From: a virus
Length of the DNA stretch: 24,525 bases
Reading direction: 5' to 3' (one strand)
Virus record (IMG/VR): IMGVR_UViG_3300042522_000987
Span: 1-24,525 of that record
Shown here: in pieces, positions 1,501-11,431 of the stretch
How the letters are laid out: every line of letters begins with the position of its first letter
Numbering within the stretch: position 1 is the first letter of the stretch
Program-made: the position numbers and the translations under genes
Notes under the pieces: generated by a model
Database searches by the model: none
The model's input: the letters and a program-made list of their open reading frames with translations, nothing else
What the model was told of the DNA's origin: nothing

Positions 1501-4079
1501 AAAGTTACATATTTAATATCAAAATTTAATACTTTATTTGTAGAACATTTATTAACTACACTTCCATGAATAGTGTTAGTTTGATTAATTGCACTAAGAT
1601 TTGATATTGTTCCAGGAACAATATCAATTTCTTTGCTTATATTATTTTCATCAATAGATGCATCAATAATAATTCCTTCATTATGAGGAGCAATATTATT
1701 AGTTTGATATATTGTTGTTATATCCCATGGAGTCTTTAGTTTATATTGATATACCAAATTAGTTCCATTTGTTATAAAAATATTTTGTCCATTTGAACTA
1801 ACTGCAATTGATGAATTTGCGCTATCAACTATAATTGATCTACCATCACTATCTTTTAATTCAAATTTAGCGGTGAGATAAAAACTAGATGGGGTTGGGT
1901 TAGAAGACGTGCTAGTATTTCCAAACTTACTAAATAACATCCTAGATCTATATTCATATAATGTATTAGTATTACTTCCAATCATATACATAACTTGCCC
2001 ACGTAGACATTTTGAAAGATGTATTTTTTTTGCTTTGAGAGTTCCTGTTTCTAAAATTCCAGATGTTGGAATAGTAGCAATACTTTGACCAGATGTACCA
2101 GCTCCAATCACTTGAAAAACATCATCAGTTGAATAAAACAGAATATCTCCTAAATTATATTGTGTTTCTAGGTTAAGTATTTGATAATTATAGCCACCAA
2201 AACAAAAAGAAGCCATGGCATCATCAGAAATAGTTGAAGTAAGAGCAGTTCCAGCAGTTAATTGAAATTCAGTATTAGCAACTATTCTATTCAATATAGT
2301 ATTATTATCTATTGTGTTTGGAATTATAAAATAATCATGCATACCATTATCAGAAATAGATATATCAACTGCATCTGTCATTAAAGTTCCAGTTGATCTT
2401 GAATAAAGTGTTCCATTATTTGAAGATAAATCAGCAAGATCAAATGTAGGATCCATAAGACCCCATCTATAAACATTTCGTGTTGTTGTTGAGGTTGTTG
2501 TTCCCGTTACTGCGTAAGCGTATTGTCCAGTATAATCAAATGTTAGTGATCTTAAATAACTAGCAGAAGAAGTTGGTAAATAAATTTTTGTTGTATTTTC
2601 AACTGCAGTTGTGACATCAGTGTTTATGTTACTAAAATCATAAGTAGTCAAATATCTAATAGAAGAATTAGTTGAAGTAGTTTCAGTTTGATTGCTATGG
2701 TGTAAAAGTATAAGTTTATTATTTTTATTGTCGTAAAATGCTCCAGTATAAACACGACTCGTTACATCATCTGGTAAATTAGCTTGTAAAATACCATTCA
2801 ATCTTTTTCTATCATTTTCTTTGTTTGGTAAATTTTTATATAAAATTGTTCTAAATTGTAAATCTTCAAGTGAATTATTAGTAATTTGACAAATAGAAAT
2901 ATTTTTTTTATTTACCTCAAATGTAAAATCATATATTTCATTTGGTTCCAGTTCGGGTGTTTCAATAGTAGTTATATCAAATGAAGAAAGTGGTATAGGA
3001 ATATTTCTCCAGGATTCTGTATTAGCATCATATATTAGTGCATCATTATTATTTAAATTATTTACATTTATATCTACATCAGTAACATCATTTAAATATA
3101 TCTGGGCATTAGATAAATCTACAACAGAATCCATTACCGTAGTAGTAAATCCACCAGTTTCTGGATCTTCAATAAACCTAAAAGTATATTGAATTCCAGT
3201 TGACGTGCCACTACTAATCATAGTTGCTACATCAGTCTTTACTTGTTCTGGATCATAACCAGCATATTCAGAATCAATTGAAAATGATATCTGATCATCA
3301 TTATTAAGTTCAATATTTACCCCAAGAGATCCAATAATAGGAATAGACGTTTTTTCGTTAAGCTGATTAACTACATCAATAGTAAATAAATTATCTGGGT
3401 TAACTTGAGTTATAGTTATAGTTAAATTATTTGTACCAGAAGATCCACCAAGTAAATTTCCAGGTATACCAATAGTATCACCTACACCAAATCTTGAGCC
3501 AGCTTCATCCAAACTAACGGTATAGGTTCCAGCAGCCTTTCCAATATCAAAAGACCATGGACCTAATGGAGTTGATCCACCAGAAAGATTAGATACAACA
3601 ACACCACTAGTTTCACTAGTAATTCTATAACTAGCTGGTCCAGAAGTAGCACTACCAGAGAAACTATAAGCCTTTATAGATCCTGGTGAAATATATGTTT
3701 TTTCTATTGTATATTGATATATTTGAGGTGGATTAACATTAGTCCAATTTTGTCCATTAAATGAAAAAATTTGTCCTCCAGTAGCGTTAGTAATAACAAA
3801 TGGAGGTATGGTTGGTTTATTTGTTAGTTGTGTATAACTACCAGAAAATGTACTTAACCACGATGGCTTGTCTGTTAAATCATTCCAACTTCCTGTAAAA
3901 ATAGTTGGTAATGTTTTCCATTCTAAACCAACACCAGTACTGGCAAGATACTGACCAGTATTTCCAAGAATACCTCCAACTTGCAATGGTCTATTTTCAG
4001 GTATATTAATACCCTTTTCTGCTTCAAACGGACCATCATTATTGTAATTAGTTATCTTATTTGCAAATATTCTGGACAT
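1497..4079 (-). CDS. Large tail fibre-like virion protein with propeller-like C-terminus
   Basis: An 860-aa protein with an N-terminal module typical of T4-like cyanophage fibres (GQYLASTGVGLEWK), then two short repeats of the W-x-D-L-T-D-K-P type (about residues 64-92). A later segment has the LNDVTDVD...DALIYD phage-fibre motif near residues 325-350. The C-terminal 450 residues are Ser/Thr/Asn-rich and contain YDF, RSLTFDYTGQYAYAV and LKTPWDITT, which resemble degenerate beta-propeller repeats of marine phage tail proteins. No signal peptide or enzyme motif is visible. A perfect TATAAATA late promoter lies 28 nt upstream of the ATG, as expected for a virion gene. Its stop overlaps the stop of the convergent fibre gene by 4 bp. 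Function as a distal fibre or adhesin is inferred. Confidence 0.85.
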   Translation of the reverse strand: MSRIFANKITNYNNDGPFEAEKGINIPENRPLQVGGILGNTGQYLASTGVGLEWKTLPTIFTGSWNDLTDKPSWLSTFSGSYTQLTNKPTIPPFVITNATGGQIFSFNGQNWTNVNPPQIYQYTIEKTYISPGSIKAYSFSGSATSGPASYRITSETSGVVVSNLSGGSTPLGPWSFDIGKAAGTYTVSLDEAGSRFGVGDTIGIPGNLLGGSSGTNNLTITITQVNPDNLFTIDVVNQLNEKTSIPIIGSLGVNIELNNDDQISFSIDSEYAGYDPEQVKTDVATMISSGTSTGIQYTFRFIEDPETGGFTTTVMDSVVDLSNAQIYLNDVTDVDINVNNLNNNDALIYDANTESWRNIPIPLSSFDITTIETPELEPNEIYDFTFEVNKKNISICQITNNSLEDLQFRTILYKNLPNKENDRKRLNGILQANLPDDVTSRVYTGAFYDNKNNKLILLHHSNQTETTSTNSSIRYLTTYDFSNINTDVTTAVENTTKIYLPTSSASYLRSLTFDYTGQYAYAVTGTTTSTTTRNVYRWGLMDPTFDLADLSSNNGTLYSRSTGTLMTDAVDISISDNGMHDYFIIPNTIDNNTILNRIVANTEFQLTAGTALTSTISDDAMASFCFGGYNYQILNLETQYNLGDILFYSTDDVFQVIGAGTSGQSIATIPTSGILETGTLKAKKIHLSKCLRGQVMYMIGSNTNTLYEYRSRMLFSKFGNTSTSSNPTPSSFYLTAKFELKDSDGRSIIVDSANSSIAVSSNGQNIFITNGTNLVYQYKLKTPWDITTIYQTNNIAPHNEGIIIDASIDENNISKEIDIVPGTISNLSAINQTNTIHGSVVNKCSTNKVLNFDIKYVTF

Positions 4080-5727: not shown

Positions 5728-6609
5728 TCAAAACTTGAACCCAAGGCCAGTGGTGAACACAGGCGAGTAAGTTCCGTTGGTAGCACCATAGCTATTAGCA
5801 GCGTTGGTGGTAGGAAACTTCAGATCAGCAAAACCAACCAGAGAGTTGGTCAGACGACCTTCGATGCCAAGAGCAAGTACAACTTGACCTTTCTCTCCAA
5901 CAGCAGACTGATAGTTAGCAGCAGTGTTGTTTACGAAAGGAATTTGATAACCAACACCAGTGTAAATGTTAGCACGGCTTACACCAGAAGCAGCACGGGC
6001 GATACTCCAATCATAAGAAAGAAGAGCACCACCAGCAGCACCGATCTGACCAACAGGAGTACCGACGAGGTTAGCATAAGGACGAACAGCAACAGCATTC
6101 TGGTTGTTGAAAGTCTTTACAGCATAACGACCTTGGATAGTGGCACCAGAGATAGTACGGTTTTCATTGTAACCATTACCATCAACACCCTGCTTATTGA
6201 GCAGTACACCAGCACCCAAATAGTTACCAACACCTTGTGCTTTTTGAGCAGCAGCAACTTCCAGAGCACTTACACGAGCATTAGTAGCACCGATCTCCTT
6301 AGCAAATTCTGCACGGAGTGCAGCAGCTAGCTGTGCATCTGCAGCAGTTTGAAATTCGCTAATACGATCTAAACATGCATTGGTTAGTGCAGCAAGCTGA
6401 GCACGAGTAGCGGGTTCGCCAGGACGGAAAGTGCCATCAGGGAAACCAGCAACACAACCATAACGCTCAACCAGATTAGTGATAGCTTGATATGACCATT
6501 GAGTAGGTTGAACATCACTCAGTTGCTTCACACTGGTGACTTGTGCCATAGAAGGAGTAGCAGCAGTAGCAGCAACAGCAGTGGCAATAATGAAAGAACG
6601 AATCATCAT
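5728..6609 (-). CDS. SLH-domain outer-membrane protein with a small beta-barrel
   Basis: A 293-aa exported protein. Residues 1-22 are a signal peptide cut after PSMA. Residues 30-84 form one S-layer-homology domain (W38, Y50GCVAGFPDGTFRPGEPATRAQLA), as in cyanobacterial porins that tether to peptidoglycan. Residues 85-124 are an Ala-rich coiled coil. Residues 127-293 alternate polar and hydrophobic, with about eight predicted strands, and end in GLGFKF, the terminal aromatic of barrels inserted by BamA. Host SLH porins usually have a much larger barrel (around 500 aa in total), so this is a short version. GC content is well above the neighbours, suggesting host origin. Two ATGs (6609, 6606) could start it. 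Likely role: altering the host outer membrane during infection. Porin activity is uncertain. Confidence 0.85.
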   Translation of the reverse strand: MMIRSFIIATAVAATAATPSMAQVTSVKQLSDVQPTQWSYQAITNLVERYGCVAGFPDGTFRPGEPATRAQLAALTNACLDRISEFQTAADAQLAAALRAEFAKEIGATNARVSALEVAAAQKAQGVGNYLGAGVLLNKQGVDGNGYNENRTISGATIQGRYAVKTFNNQNAVAVRPYANLVGTPVGQIGAAGGALLSYDWSIARAASGVSRANIYTGVGYQIPFVNNTAANYQSAVGEKGQVVLALGIEGRLTNSLVGFADLKFPTTNAANSYGATNGTYSPVFTTGLGFKF

Positions 6610-6748: not shown

Positions 6749-6858
6749 AAATAAGGGGATTGCCAATCCCCAGTATAGACAGGCTCGCCACTAATTTTGA
6801 TTACGAGAAAATTAGAAACTCGGCGGGAGTTATAAACCCCATCCGCACCAGTCGGCAT
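6739..6858 (-). CDS. Doubtful 39-aa ORF upstream of tRNA-Gly
   Basis: This is the only protein-like frame in the 160-bp gap between the 70-aa gene at 6910 and tRNA-Gly. It begins MPTGADGVYNSRRVSNFLVI, has a mixed, soluble-looking composition and stops inside the first bases of the tRNA gene. No convincing ribosome site precedes the ATG (a GGA lies too far away), although the frame is open further upstream. It may be a real micro-gene or a remnant. I do not recognise it. Confidence 0.3.
   Translation of the reverse strand: MPTGADGVYNSRRVSNFLVIKISGEPVYTGDWQSPYLRL
6755..6771 (-). other. Hairpin immediately upstream of tRNA-Gly
   Basis: GGGGATT and AATCCCC form a 7-bp stem with a 3-nt loop. On the minus strand it is followed by TTATTT and then directly by the tRNA 5' end. 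It could be a weak terminator or a precursor-tRNA processing feature. Confidence 0.45.
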
Positions 6859-6909
6859 ATTTAATGTCCAATCCGACGAGGACAATCGAGGGGGTCCCGA
6901 CCAGTGCTG

Positions 6910-9006: not shown

Positions 9007-9369
9007 TCAGACAGTTCGATAGCAAATGTCTGCTACTCCTTGCCCAGGGTGAGCAATAGCGGAGAACGCACCATAGGACAAGTCAAGATCTCTACCGCCA
9101 ATGTAGGGACCACGATCATTTACTCGCACAATTACTGACTTACCACTTCGTTGATTTGTAACTCTTAATCTGGTTCCGAAAGGAAGCCATCGATGTGCAA
9201 CTGATTTTCCATAAGCATTAAATCTTTCACCGTTAGCAGTTGTCTGCCCATGATAACCATCACCCACTCCATAATGTGATGCAAGTGAGCAACCACTTGC
9301 TGCTTTTGCCTGCAGGGGTGCTAGTCCTGTAATAGCAAAAGTAAGGATCGAAATTGTTTTAAAAAGCAT
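9007..9369 (-). CDS. RlpA-like double-psi beta-barrel protein, secreted
   Basis: 120 aa from the ATG at 9369 (a TTG nine codons earlier is less likely). Residues 1-23 are a signal peptide (MLFKTISILT...QAKA). The rest is a single RlpA domain: ASHYGVGDGYHGQTTANGERFN, LPFGTRLRVTN and VRVNDRGPYIGGRDLDLS, including the family's Asp in NDRGP and the DLS motif. Bacterial RlpA is a periplasmic lytic transglycosylase acting on peptide-free glycan strands; whether this short version is catalytic is open. It lies in the envelope and lysis neighbourhood and has its own early-type promoter and a roughly 100-nt structured leader. No SPOR domain is present. A weak ribosome site precedes the ATG. Confidence 0.88.
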   Translation of the reverse strand: MLFKTISILTFAITGLAPLQAKAASGCSLASHYGVGDGYHGQTTANGERFNAYGKSVAHRWLPFGTRLRVTNQRSGKSVIVRVNDRGPYIGGRDLDLSYGAFSAIAHPGQGVADICYRTV

Positions 9370-9374
9370 TAATT

Positions 9375-9468
9375 TAAATAGAACTCTACATCCCAATAGA
9401 AGGGGGGTACACCACTCCTCTCGGAGGGCACCTTCCTGGGCTCTAATTTCACGTCAATATCTCATGAC
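9375..9468 (-). promoter_or_regulatory. Structured 5' leader of the RlpA-like mRNA
   Basis: The minus-strand transcript from the promoter at 9477-9505 begins near 9470 and folds into at least two elements: CGTCA/TGACG with an 8-nt loop at once after the start, then a longer arm GGAAGG...CCTTC enclosing a perfect CTCC-GAGA-GGAG hairpin with a GNRA tetraloop. The T-run needed for a terminator is missing. I compared it by memory with glutamine/glnA-type RNAs of cyanophages and do not find the conserved core. It may be a regulatory or stabilising leader. Confidence 0.5.
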
Positions 9469-9870: not shown

Positions 9871-10037
9871 AATCTACATTTCTCATTGGAATATTAATTA
9901 TGAGATTAATAACCAACGAAGGAATTTTCAATGAAGGACGCAGACCACAACCAAAACGACAACCAACCGAAGTTGGTAGATTCATCAGAAGACCAGCAAA
10001 AAGAGGCAGGAAAAAAGCACGGTTCAATATTGAATAA
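9867..10037 (+). CDS. 56-aa very basic peptide overlapping the holin-like gene
   Basis: The ATG forms ATGA with the upstream stop, and GAGGGA lies only about 2 nt before it. The peptide begins MKSTFLIGILIMRLITNEGI, a short hydrophobic segment, and then becomes strongly basic (GRRPQPKRQPTEVGRFIRRP, AKRGRKKARF). The last 107 nt are shared with the first 35 codons of the next gene in another frame. It could be a membrane-associated or nucleic-acid-binding micropeptide, or a leader used for coupled translation. Only the start coupling and composition support it. Confidence 0.45.
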   Translation: MKSTFLIGILIMRLITNEGIFNEGRRPQPKRQPTEVGRFIRRPAKRGRKKARFNIE

Positions 10038-10257
10038 ACTGATCTTTATCATCTGTTGTTCAGTGATTGGATTCGTAGGATTAAGTTTTATTTCTTGTAA
10101 TTTTATGATCCCAGGAACAATCACTCATGCAAATCTTTTAGGTGGATTAAAAAATCCTCCTCCTTCAGATTGCAATGAATCTCAAAGAAGAGGATATGAA
10201 ACTTTATTAACTATTCTTACTACAGTAATTGCTTTAAGAACTAAGTTAGAAGATTAA
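9931..10257 (+). CDS. Membrane protein, holin-like candidate
   Basis: 108 aa with a polar charged N-terminus (residues 1-33), one clear transmembrane helix (LIFIICCSVIGFVGLSFISC, about 37-57), a Pro/Asn loop (NPPPSDCNESQ) and a weakly hydrophobic C-terminal helix (YETLLTILTTVIALRTK). GAAGGA lies 8 nt before the ATG, a good ribosome site. It ends on the same TTAA as the convergent lysozyme. Small size, an N-in helix and position beside the endolysin genes suggest a holin or antiholin, but there is no family signature I can name. The 5' third is shared with the 56-aa basic ORF. Confidence 0.7.
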   Translation: MKDADHNQNDNQPKLVDSSEDQQKEAGKKHGSILNKLIFIICCSVIGFVGLSFISCNFMIPGTITHANLLGGLKNPPPSDCNESQRRGYETLLTILTTVIALRTKLED

Positions 10258-10712
10258 GAACTCCAAAGTTTTCCTTCAGCAACACGTCTTCTAAGTAATC
10301 CTGCTTCAACATTTGATCCAGGATTACGATATAACTTCAAAGTTTCTGGGATTGTTTTCCAATTCTTCTCACGTAGATTGCGAGAGATAGTATTGAAATT
10401 GCTTGAATTGTAAAACCCAGCACCAAGATTATAAGCAAAGGATAAAAGTGCTCCACGTTGGTTGTCATTCATTTCACTCCAATAAGGTATACTTTTTAAG
10501 GTAGACATAAAACGATTACGAATATCAAACTCTAACAAAGCATTCGCTTCTTCTAAAGTAATTTTTTCGCCAAGATGAAATGGAGATCCATTTCTTTTAC
10601 GAGTGCTTCCCCAACCAATTGTAATTGGAAGTCCGCCAGTATGAGGGTCAGGATAAGCAGTTAATTTGCACCCTTCAAATTCTTTGATAAGCTCTACACC
10701 TGCTTGTGGCAA
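10254..10712 (-). CDS. GH24 phage lysozyme (endolysin muramidase domain)
   Basis: A T4-lysozyme-type muramidase that cleaves the MurNAc-GlcNAc bond of peptidoglycan. Numbered from the TTG at 10712, the catalytic set is Glu13 (IKEFEG), Asp22 (AYPDPHTGG) and Thr31 (PITIGWGST), with the GH24 core NDNQRGALLSFAYNLG and C-terminal AGLLRRRVAEGKLW. There is no signal peptide. It has no ATG and the TTG has no ribosome site; the TTG lies in the loop of a hairpin. The frame is open upstream to a TGA just before the end of the C39 peptidase gene and lines up with a -1 shift at A AAA AAG there. It may therefore be made mainly as the C-terminal half of a 392-aa fusion. Confidence 0.9.
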   Translation of the reverse strand: MPQAGVELIKEFEGCKLTAYPDPHTGGLPITIGWGSTRKRNGSPFHLGEKITLEEANALLEFDIRNRFMSTLKSIPYWSEMNDNQRGALLSFAYNLGAGFYNSSNFNTISRNLREKNWKTIPETLKLYRNPGSNVEAGLLRRRVAEGKLWSS

Positions 10713-10742
10713 TTCATCAAGTGCAGAGCCTACGCCTTTTTT
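10691..10742 (-). promoter_or_regulatory. Putative programmed -1 ribosomal frameshift signal
   Basis: On the minus strand the peptidase reading frame ends GCA AAA AAG GCG TAG. The heptamer A AAA AAG (10742-10736) is the X XXY YYZ slippery site used in E. coli dnaX. Six nt later (GCGTAG) begins a 12-bp stem: 10729-10718 pairs fully with 10702-10691, including two G-U pairs, around a 15-nt loop. A -1 slip continues GGC GTA GGC TCT ... into the lysozyme without a stop, adding the linker GVGSALDELPQAG. Heptamer phase, spacer length and stem length all match known -1 signals. Confidence 0.75.
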
Positions 10743-11431
10743 GCATCAAAAATACGTCCCCAACCATCATTACCCCCTGGGCACCACCTACGAGCCAGTT
10801 CTGAACGCTTGTAGATGGCTCCACGACCGTTCGTAACAGAGCCTGTATACCCATCATTTATTGAACCATATGGATCATTTACAATATAATCACCTTGAGG
10901 AGTCTTACCAATTACTACTACCATGTGTCCTCCTGTGGGATTAGATAAAGTCCCCCTATGAAGAATACCAATAACAACAGGTCTACCAGCGGCAAGCTCT
11001 CTATCAAGATCAGCAAAAGTAAGGCTGTAGCTGAAGCTGGATTTAATACCATACGTAGCAAGAACTCTGGTTTGAACCAAGTGATCAGTTGAATCGCCAA
11101 TTGAGAAAACTTTTCTAACATAAGCGTCGTCGCCTTTTGATCCTACTAGTGTTCCTGGTTTAAAATATTCAAGAGCCATAGCACAGGCAGAAGAATTACA
11201 AGTCCTATGAGCGTCTCTATAATTGTCTGTTTGAGGAAACCAAGGAACACTTAGAACATTTGATACTGGTTTATTTTCTTTTGTTCTATATGTCACAACC
11301 CATTGAGAATTATCAGTTAACTCTTCTGGTGCTTTTTGATCAAGTGCCTTTTCCAACAATTCTACCGCAGCAACATGCTTGGGGTTATTTTCATCATAGT
11401 GTTTAAAAAAATTGTGCAAATCAATCTTCAT
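10730..11431 (-). CDS. C39-like papain-fold cysteine peptidase (endolysin peptidase domain)
   Basis: 233 aa from the ATG at 11431, which has GGAGA about 7 nt upstream; an ATG twelve codons earlier lacks this. Domain: helical N-terminus (1-60), then a C39-type papain fold with VPWFPQTDN (oxyanion Gln67), Cys78 in RTCNSSACAMAL, His169 in GGHMVVVIG and Asp186 in VNDPYG, the family's Gln-Cys-His-Asp set. There is no signal peptide or transporter domain, so it is not a bacteriocin-processing exporter; next to a lysozyme it most likely cleaves peptidoglycan cross-bridges or stems. Its end carries a -1 frameshift signal that would fuse it to the GH24 lysozyme. It overlaps the upstream endonuclease gene by 11 nt. 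Confidence 0.85.
   Translation of the reverse strand: MKIDLHNFFKHYDENNPKHVAAVELLEKALDQKAPEELTDNSQWVVTYRTKENKPVSNVLSVPWFPQTDNYRDAHRTCNSSACAMALEYFKPGTLVGSKGDDAYVRKVFSIGDSTDHLVQTRVLATYGIKSSFSYSLTFADLDRELAAGRPVVIGILHRGTLSNPTGGHMVVVIGKTPQGDYIVNDPYGSINDGYTGSVTNGRGAIYKRSELARRWCPGGNDGWGRIFDAKKA

Follow-up and report, generated by a model that had tools for sequence, protein, structure and literature searches.

Results

Organization of the lysin locus

The window analysed in this study comprises all 24,525 nucleotides of an IMG/VR virus record and derives from a T4-like cyanophage, a relative of Synechococcus phage S-PM2. On its minus strand lies a C39-family peptidase gene (10730-11431), which encodes a 0-frame product of 233 aa from an ATG at 11431 to a TAG; this start agrees with the MKIDLHNFF sequence of relatives. 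The protein is composed of an N-terminal module of about 50 aa and a C39 domain, and it matches Pfam PF13529 (E 1e-12), with the Gln/Cys, His and Asp motifs, as well as the endolysin family phrog_10051 of the PHROGs (E 4e-85). The 3' end of the gene reads GAT GCA AAA AAG GCG TAG and thus contains the slippery heptamer A_AAA_AAG in phase (10736-10742, minus strand), followed by the 6-nt spacer GCG TAG (10730-10735), which includes the 0-frame stop codon at 10732-10730. Directly behind it a putative stimulatory stem-loop is located (10691-10729, minus strand), the core of which consists of 12 bp (GCTCTGCACTTG / CAGGTGTAGAGC; 10729-10718 with 10702-10691), two of them G-U pairs, and encloses a loop of 15 nt. 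A first-pass annotation of this DNA had described the heptamer, the spacer and the stem in exactly this form, and each was confirmed to the base. RNA folding of the region yielded -22.8 kcal/mol compared to -12.8 +/- 2.5 for shuffled sequences (z -4.0), none of 200 shuffles being equally good, and four weaker pairs can lengthen the stem toward the heptamer.

The -1 frame encodes a GH24 lysozyme (muramidase; 10254-10736, minus strand) that matches Pfam PF00959 (E 1.6e-23) and solved GH24 lysozymes and carries the catalytic E-D-T motif. This frame is open through GH24, as had been annotated, until a stop at 10254, and its fusion to the peptidase would comprise 232 + 160 = 392 aa. No ATG was found in the -1 frame ahead of the catalytic Glu of this phage, nor a GH24 start overlapping the peptidase stop that would allow translational coupling. 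The earlier description of a lone TTG also held: the sole possible independent start (10710-10712, minus strand) lies inside the hairpin loop, has no Shine-Dalgarno sequence and is not kept as a start among relatives. Upstream of any start the -1 frame encodes a linker peptide, which is VTSSTSR in S-PM2 and GVGSALDELPQAGVELIK, beginning upstream of the TTG, in this phage. With an in-phase X_XXY_YYZ heptamer, an open and conserved -1 frame, a downstream structure and conservation, the signal corresponds to what textbooks describe for -1 frameshifting and is of a known kind. A short product as in dnaX is ruled out for this phage, as the -1 product is the longer one.

Several neighbouring features were observed as well. 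A candidate lytic transglycosylase with an RlpA-like DPBB domain (PF03330) and an apparent signal peptide is encoded near the lysin (9007-9396, minus strand); such an ORF also adjoins the lysin in L150, and one is annotated in S-SZBM1 (L007). A convergent ORF of 108 aa (9931-10257, plus strand) ends beside the lysin, contains one hydrophobic segment, has no Pfam match and is possibly a small membrane lysis protein. Farther away, a stretch richer in G+C holds an S-layer-homology porin-like ORF (5728-6609, minus strand), which looks host-derived; a wcaG RNA (RF01761) and a tRNA-Gly lie just upstream of it (6777-6885, minus strand).

The heptamer among related phages

The first-pass annotation had named conservation in related cyanophages as a way of checking its frameshift reading. 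Scans of IMG/VR served to gather relatives and brought up 137 distinct junctions at which the peptidase is followed by GH24 in the -1 frame; loci were counted as distinct sequences and do not stand for independent lineages. In 93 of these junctions GH24 is not a separate gene and lacks a start overlapping the peptidase stop (start-less class), and all 93 carry a canonical in-phase heptamer at the peptidase end, namely A_AAA_AAG in 81, C_CCA_AAG in nine and T_TTT_TTT in three. Another 14 junctions combine A_AAA_AAG with an overlapping ATG, GTG or TTG. The remaining 30 are without heptamer, and each has its own GH24 start, either overlapping (16) or downstream in a separate gene (14). A start overlapping the peptidase stop is found altogether in 30 of the 137 relatives, 14 of these with the heptamer. 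By comparison, a heptamer is missing from all 43 distinct peptidase genes that have no GH24 downstream, and one of the three types occurs within the last five codons of only 5 of 1601 other ORF ends. The slip signal is a recurrent device with three different heptamers and not the oddity of a single phage. Since it recurs in about 100 related virus sequences, it is under selection rather than a sequencing accident.

In an earlier subset all 75 codons preceding AAA AAG had an A at the third position (GCA, GTA, GAA or ACA), even though GCA makes up just 39% of the Ala codons and GTA 27% of the Val codons. TAG serves as the 0-frame stop of 77 among the 93 frameshift-class loci, whereas only 161 of 1019 ORFs in these loci end with it; RF1 pausing or coding in the -1 frame are candidate causes of this excess. 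When the junctions were read by eye, no obvious conserved Shine-Dalgarno stimulator was noticed upstream at the usual distance. The peptidase motifs are intact in 83 of the 93 loci under a strict pattern.

The first-pass annotation had pointed out that a different length of the A run upon resequencing would speak against its reading; the same length was found in scores of separate assemblies. One might suppose that the two frames are truly one and were split by a sequencing error, or that GH24 is dead in a decaying pseudogene, and versions with A7 instead of A6, which result in an in-frame fusion, do exist in three close relatives of A6 sequences (L200, L201 and L202, around 3130-3230). Whether these A7 runs reflect a natural switch or an assembly error, A6 is present in 81 distinct start-less junctions including that of the isolate S-PM2, GH24 has a dN/dS of 0.15, and 88 of 93 loci retain an intact E-D-T motif in it. 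For the family this explanation is refuted by the repeated A6, the other heptamers and purifying selection, and for the present phage we regard its probability as negligible.

Conservation and covariation of the stem

Stem pairs were counted in register by a script, and the best helix after the heptamer was scored as z. The median z was 4.75 in the start-less A_AAA_AAG junctions, with values above 2 in 73 of 81, and 4.63 in the C_CCA_AAG junctions. It amounted to 0.28 where a start overlaps the peptidase stop, to -0.3 to -0.4 in controls without heptamer and to -0.24 in those without GH24. Because z is high in start-less heptamer junctions and near zero in controls, the stem follows the need for frameshifting and not the gene pair. 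By the simple helix score, 8 of the 81 A_AAA_AAG junctions show no stem beyond chance. In one subgroup the stem would begin 2-4 nt past the heptamer if all A-U and G-U pairs form; mostly, the spacer in relatives measures 2-8 nt.

The related cyanophages thus keep heptamer, spacer and stem, and the stem arms covary. Pairing was observed in 84.2% of cells compared to 62.8% after shuffling within columns (maximum 66.6), and 187 cells were changed on both sides of the stem compared to 69 in shuffles (maximum 93). The clearest covariation involves the GH24 Gly-Val-Glu codons: at their third positions A-U as well as U-A and G-C pairs are seen. When arms were swapped among eight clusters, the observed pairing was never attained in 20000 permutations. 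As these shuffles are uncorrected for relatedness, they are to be read as strong support and not as exact probabilities.

The stem also bears on the idea that RNA polymerase slips on the A6 run, or on T8, and adds a base to some transcripts, by which the frames would be joined. A single additional A does turn the two frames into one, and the DNA of L200-L202 shows such an in-frame fusion; the T8 of S-CAM7 is a long run. An A6 run is short for polymerase slippage. Moreover, the C_CCA_AAG sites have no homopolymer run, yet they show the same layout and stem, and a conserved, covarying stem together with a fixed heptamer phase is expected of ribosomal and not of transcriptional slipping. We therefore judge polymerase slippage to be very improbable.

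Start codons and selection on the GH24 frame

It is also conceivable that two separate proteins are made, with GH24 starting independently at the loop TTG or by termination-reinitiation and the heptamer being incidental. The TTG at 10712 is present, and among relatives a start overlaps the peptidase stop in 30 (14 with heptamer) and a separate GH24 gene exists in 14. However, in 47 of the 93 start-less loci none of the codons ATG, GTG and TTG occurs ahead of the catalytic Glu. In the other 46 the later candidate starts are mostly TTG or GTG without Shine-Dalgarno sequence, such a motif preceding only 3 of them; it was found in 14 of 14 separate GH24 genes. Relatives with proper GH24 starts and no heptamer or stem, which the first-pass annotation had considered to be damaging to its reading, do not represent the start-less architecture: all 30 junctions that have a start and no heptamer lack the stem as well. 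The survey of start codons rules out an independent TTG start as a general route, and synthesis of two separate proteins in this phage is highly unlikely. On the other hand, coupling can replace or add to shifting, as indicated by the 14 relatives with both heptamer and overlapping start.

The median dN/dS of GH24 among relatives is about 0.15, which points to purifying selection on this domain. Where the heptamer is C_CCA_AAG, an Ala/Pro-rich stretch such as GGSSAPAAA usually forms the beginning of the -1 frame, at the shift site. Stretches of this kind are typical inter-domain linkers. Annotations of the GH24 part in S-PM2 ('putative lysin', L001 2500-2718) and S-CAM7 ('lysin', L008 2741-3013) begin at internal starts behind the catalytic Glu; apparently they are such fragments because gene callers cannot see the shift.

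Domain architectures and evolution

Isolates display a range of architectures. In S-PM2, whose lysin gene is located directly downstream of nrdB, the peptidase ends with GCA AAA AAG TAA, and GH24 follows in the -1 frame, its catalytic Glu being preceded by no ATG, GTG or TTG. In S-SRM01 an ATG overlaps the stop of GCA AAA AAG CAA TGA, and S-CAM7 has AGA GTT TTT TTT CCA CAG TAG with the heptamer T_TTT_TTT and GH24 in the -1 frame. Two separate genes are found in DSL-LC02 and LC03. The first-pass annotation had also raised the question of whether some relatives carry both domains as one ORF; this is the case in ACG-2014f and its clade, and in S-CREM1, where the domains are fused in reversed order. 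The fused gene of ACG-2014f nevertheless keeps, at L006 1990-2070 and also in L439-L441, GCA AAA AAG together with an 8-bp hairpin behind a 5-nt spacer, and the -1 frame stops immediately; four strains are identical in this. In this dnaX-like layout shifting is predicted to yield a short, peptidase-only product. The layout is absent from the sister loci L091-L099, which have AAG AAG, CAG AAG or similar.

GH24 lysins that are encoded separately also carry the N-terminal module of about 50 residues (E about 1e-21), and so do GH19/chitinase-like lysins in other phages (E about 1e-11; L107 2480-3226, L110 2477-3244). For the GH19-like domain of the latter two Pfam gave no name; PHROGs and solved endolysins pointed to endolysin/chitinase. 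Judged by this distribution, the N-terminal module is a mobile module of cyanophage lysins. The GH24 behind the heptamer is without it and would acquire it through frameshifting.

In a tree of 162 peptidases, built by a quick method, the T_TTT_TTT pair is nested within the in-frame-fused clade (support 100), the C_CCA_AAG sequences cluster with one sequence lacking GH24 (support 99), and A_AAA_AAG is widespread elsewhere. The simplest reading would be three origins of the heptamer device. Furthermore, C39 domains 60-61% identical to that of the phage were observed in genome contigs of Arthrospira, Laspinema and Roseofilum (L434, L436-L438), which suggests that the C39 gene has been exchanged with hosts.

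Lysine tRNAs of potential hosts

The behaviour of A_AAA_AAG in E. coli relative to several related heptamers has been linked to a sole tRNA-Lys (PMC5009743; see also PMC4066793). Nine cyanobacteria with small genomes (1.6-2.7 Mb), probably the picocyanobacterial group, have a match to tRNA-Lys(UUU), which ARAGORN confirmed in six of the nine, and in none of the nine was a tRNA-Lys(CUU) seen, which is the tRNA situation connected with slipping on this heptamer. Among larger cyanobacteria, CUU matches are found in many.

Discussion

The locus analysed in our study very probably carries a signal for programmed -1 ribosomal frameshifting by which a bifunctional endolysin is made, with a 233-aa peptidase and a 392-aa peptidase-muramidase as products. 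Most ribosomes would end at the TAG right after A_AAA_AAG and release the peptidase. A fraction would pause at the downstream stem, whereupon two tRNA-Lys would slip back by one base on the heptamer and translation would enter the GH24 frame; the resulting product would consist of the N-module, the C39 peptidase and the GH24 muramidase. The frameshift reading of the first-pass annotation is supported by our comparison, with heptamers in 93 of 93 start-less junctions, a covarying stem and relatives that carry both domains in one ORF. Signal, phase, exclusive association with start-less GH24 in the -1 frame, covariation and purifying selection can all be read from sequence comparison, and we infer from them that slipping would occur at a useful frequency and that both products, at a set ratio, would be made and active in lysis. 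By this means GH24 would share the N-module of the peptidase, possibly a wall-targeting module, while a peptidase-only product would persist. However, the ACG-2014f clade manages with an in-frame fusion; the ratio of two products is therefore not indispensable.

Similar sites have been described for IS911 and the IS3 family and for other A_AAA_AAG sites, with the same heptamer and phase, a stem-loop a few nucleotides downstream and a longer -1 product (PMC4066793). In contrast, the gene described here encodes a phage cell-wall hydrolase and not a transposase, C_CCA_AAG and T_TTT_TTT are also found at the homologous place, and no conserved upstream Shine-Dalgarno stimulator was noticed. Tail-assembly chaperones of the lambda G/GT type resemble the lysin in that a -1 shift in a dsDNA phage gene leads to two products with a common N-terminus. 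Nevertheless, the lysin is not a tail gene, it encodes C39 and GH24 hydrolase domains, and its C-terminal extension is a complete enzyme domain. In dnaX of E. coli a stem follows the heptamer, which stands in a GCA AAA AAG context. The same A AAA AAG heptamer is used there (PMC5009743); the dnaX shift makes a short product via an immediate -1 stop, whereas the lysin shift makes a long one, and only ACG-2014f shares the dnaX polarity.

More than one product from an endolysin locus is also known for the lysin of Lactococcus phage vML3 and for lysA of Ms6. A study on PRFect counts lysins among the genes with a known frameshift and seems to cite Shearman et al. 1994 for this (PMC10885494). The vML3 locus is described in another report as a lysin and a holin-like protein from overlapping genes (PMC3111421). 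Ms6 lysA uses an in-frame internal start (PMC3111421) and not a frameshift, and neither locus is described in these reports as a heptamer and stem joining two catalytic domains. In the literature searched, which included few subscription papers, no endolysin or cyanophage lysis gene made by such a frameshift was found. The first-pass annotation's remark that no endolysin made in this way had been described is thus in line with the literature searched, with the caveat that others cite the vML3 lysin (Shearman et al. 1994) as frameshifted.

A more general reading is that cyanophages use recoding to set the ratio of peptidase-only to peptidase-muramidase product, that this arose at least three times with different heptamers, in addition to the reversed dnaX-like polarity in ACG-2014f, and that selection maintains the ratio itself. 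We put this forward tentatively, as a possibility that may well not hold. Relatives of the peptidase occur in hundreds of environmental phage contigs, and the gap in annotation may hence be large. If the frameshift reading is true, the lysin would be a clear example of programmed frameshifting among the lysis enzymes of phages, and a widely conserved one, in which two wall-cutting activities would share one N-terminal module through ribosomal recoding. It would also provide a natural and testable -1 frameshift signal with many evolved variants for cyanobacterial systems.
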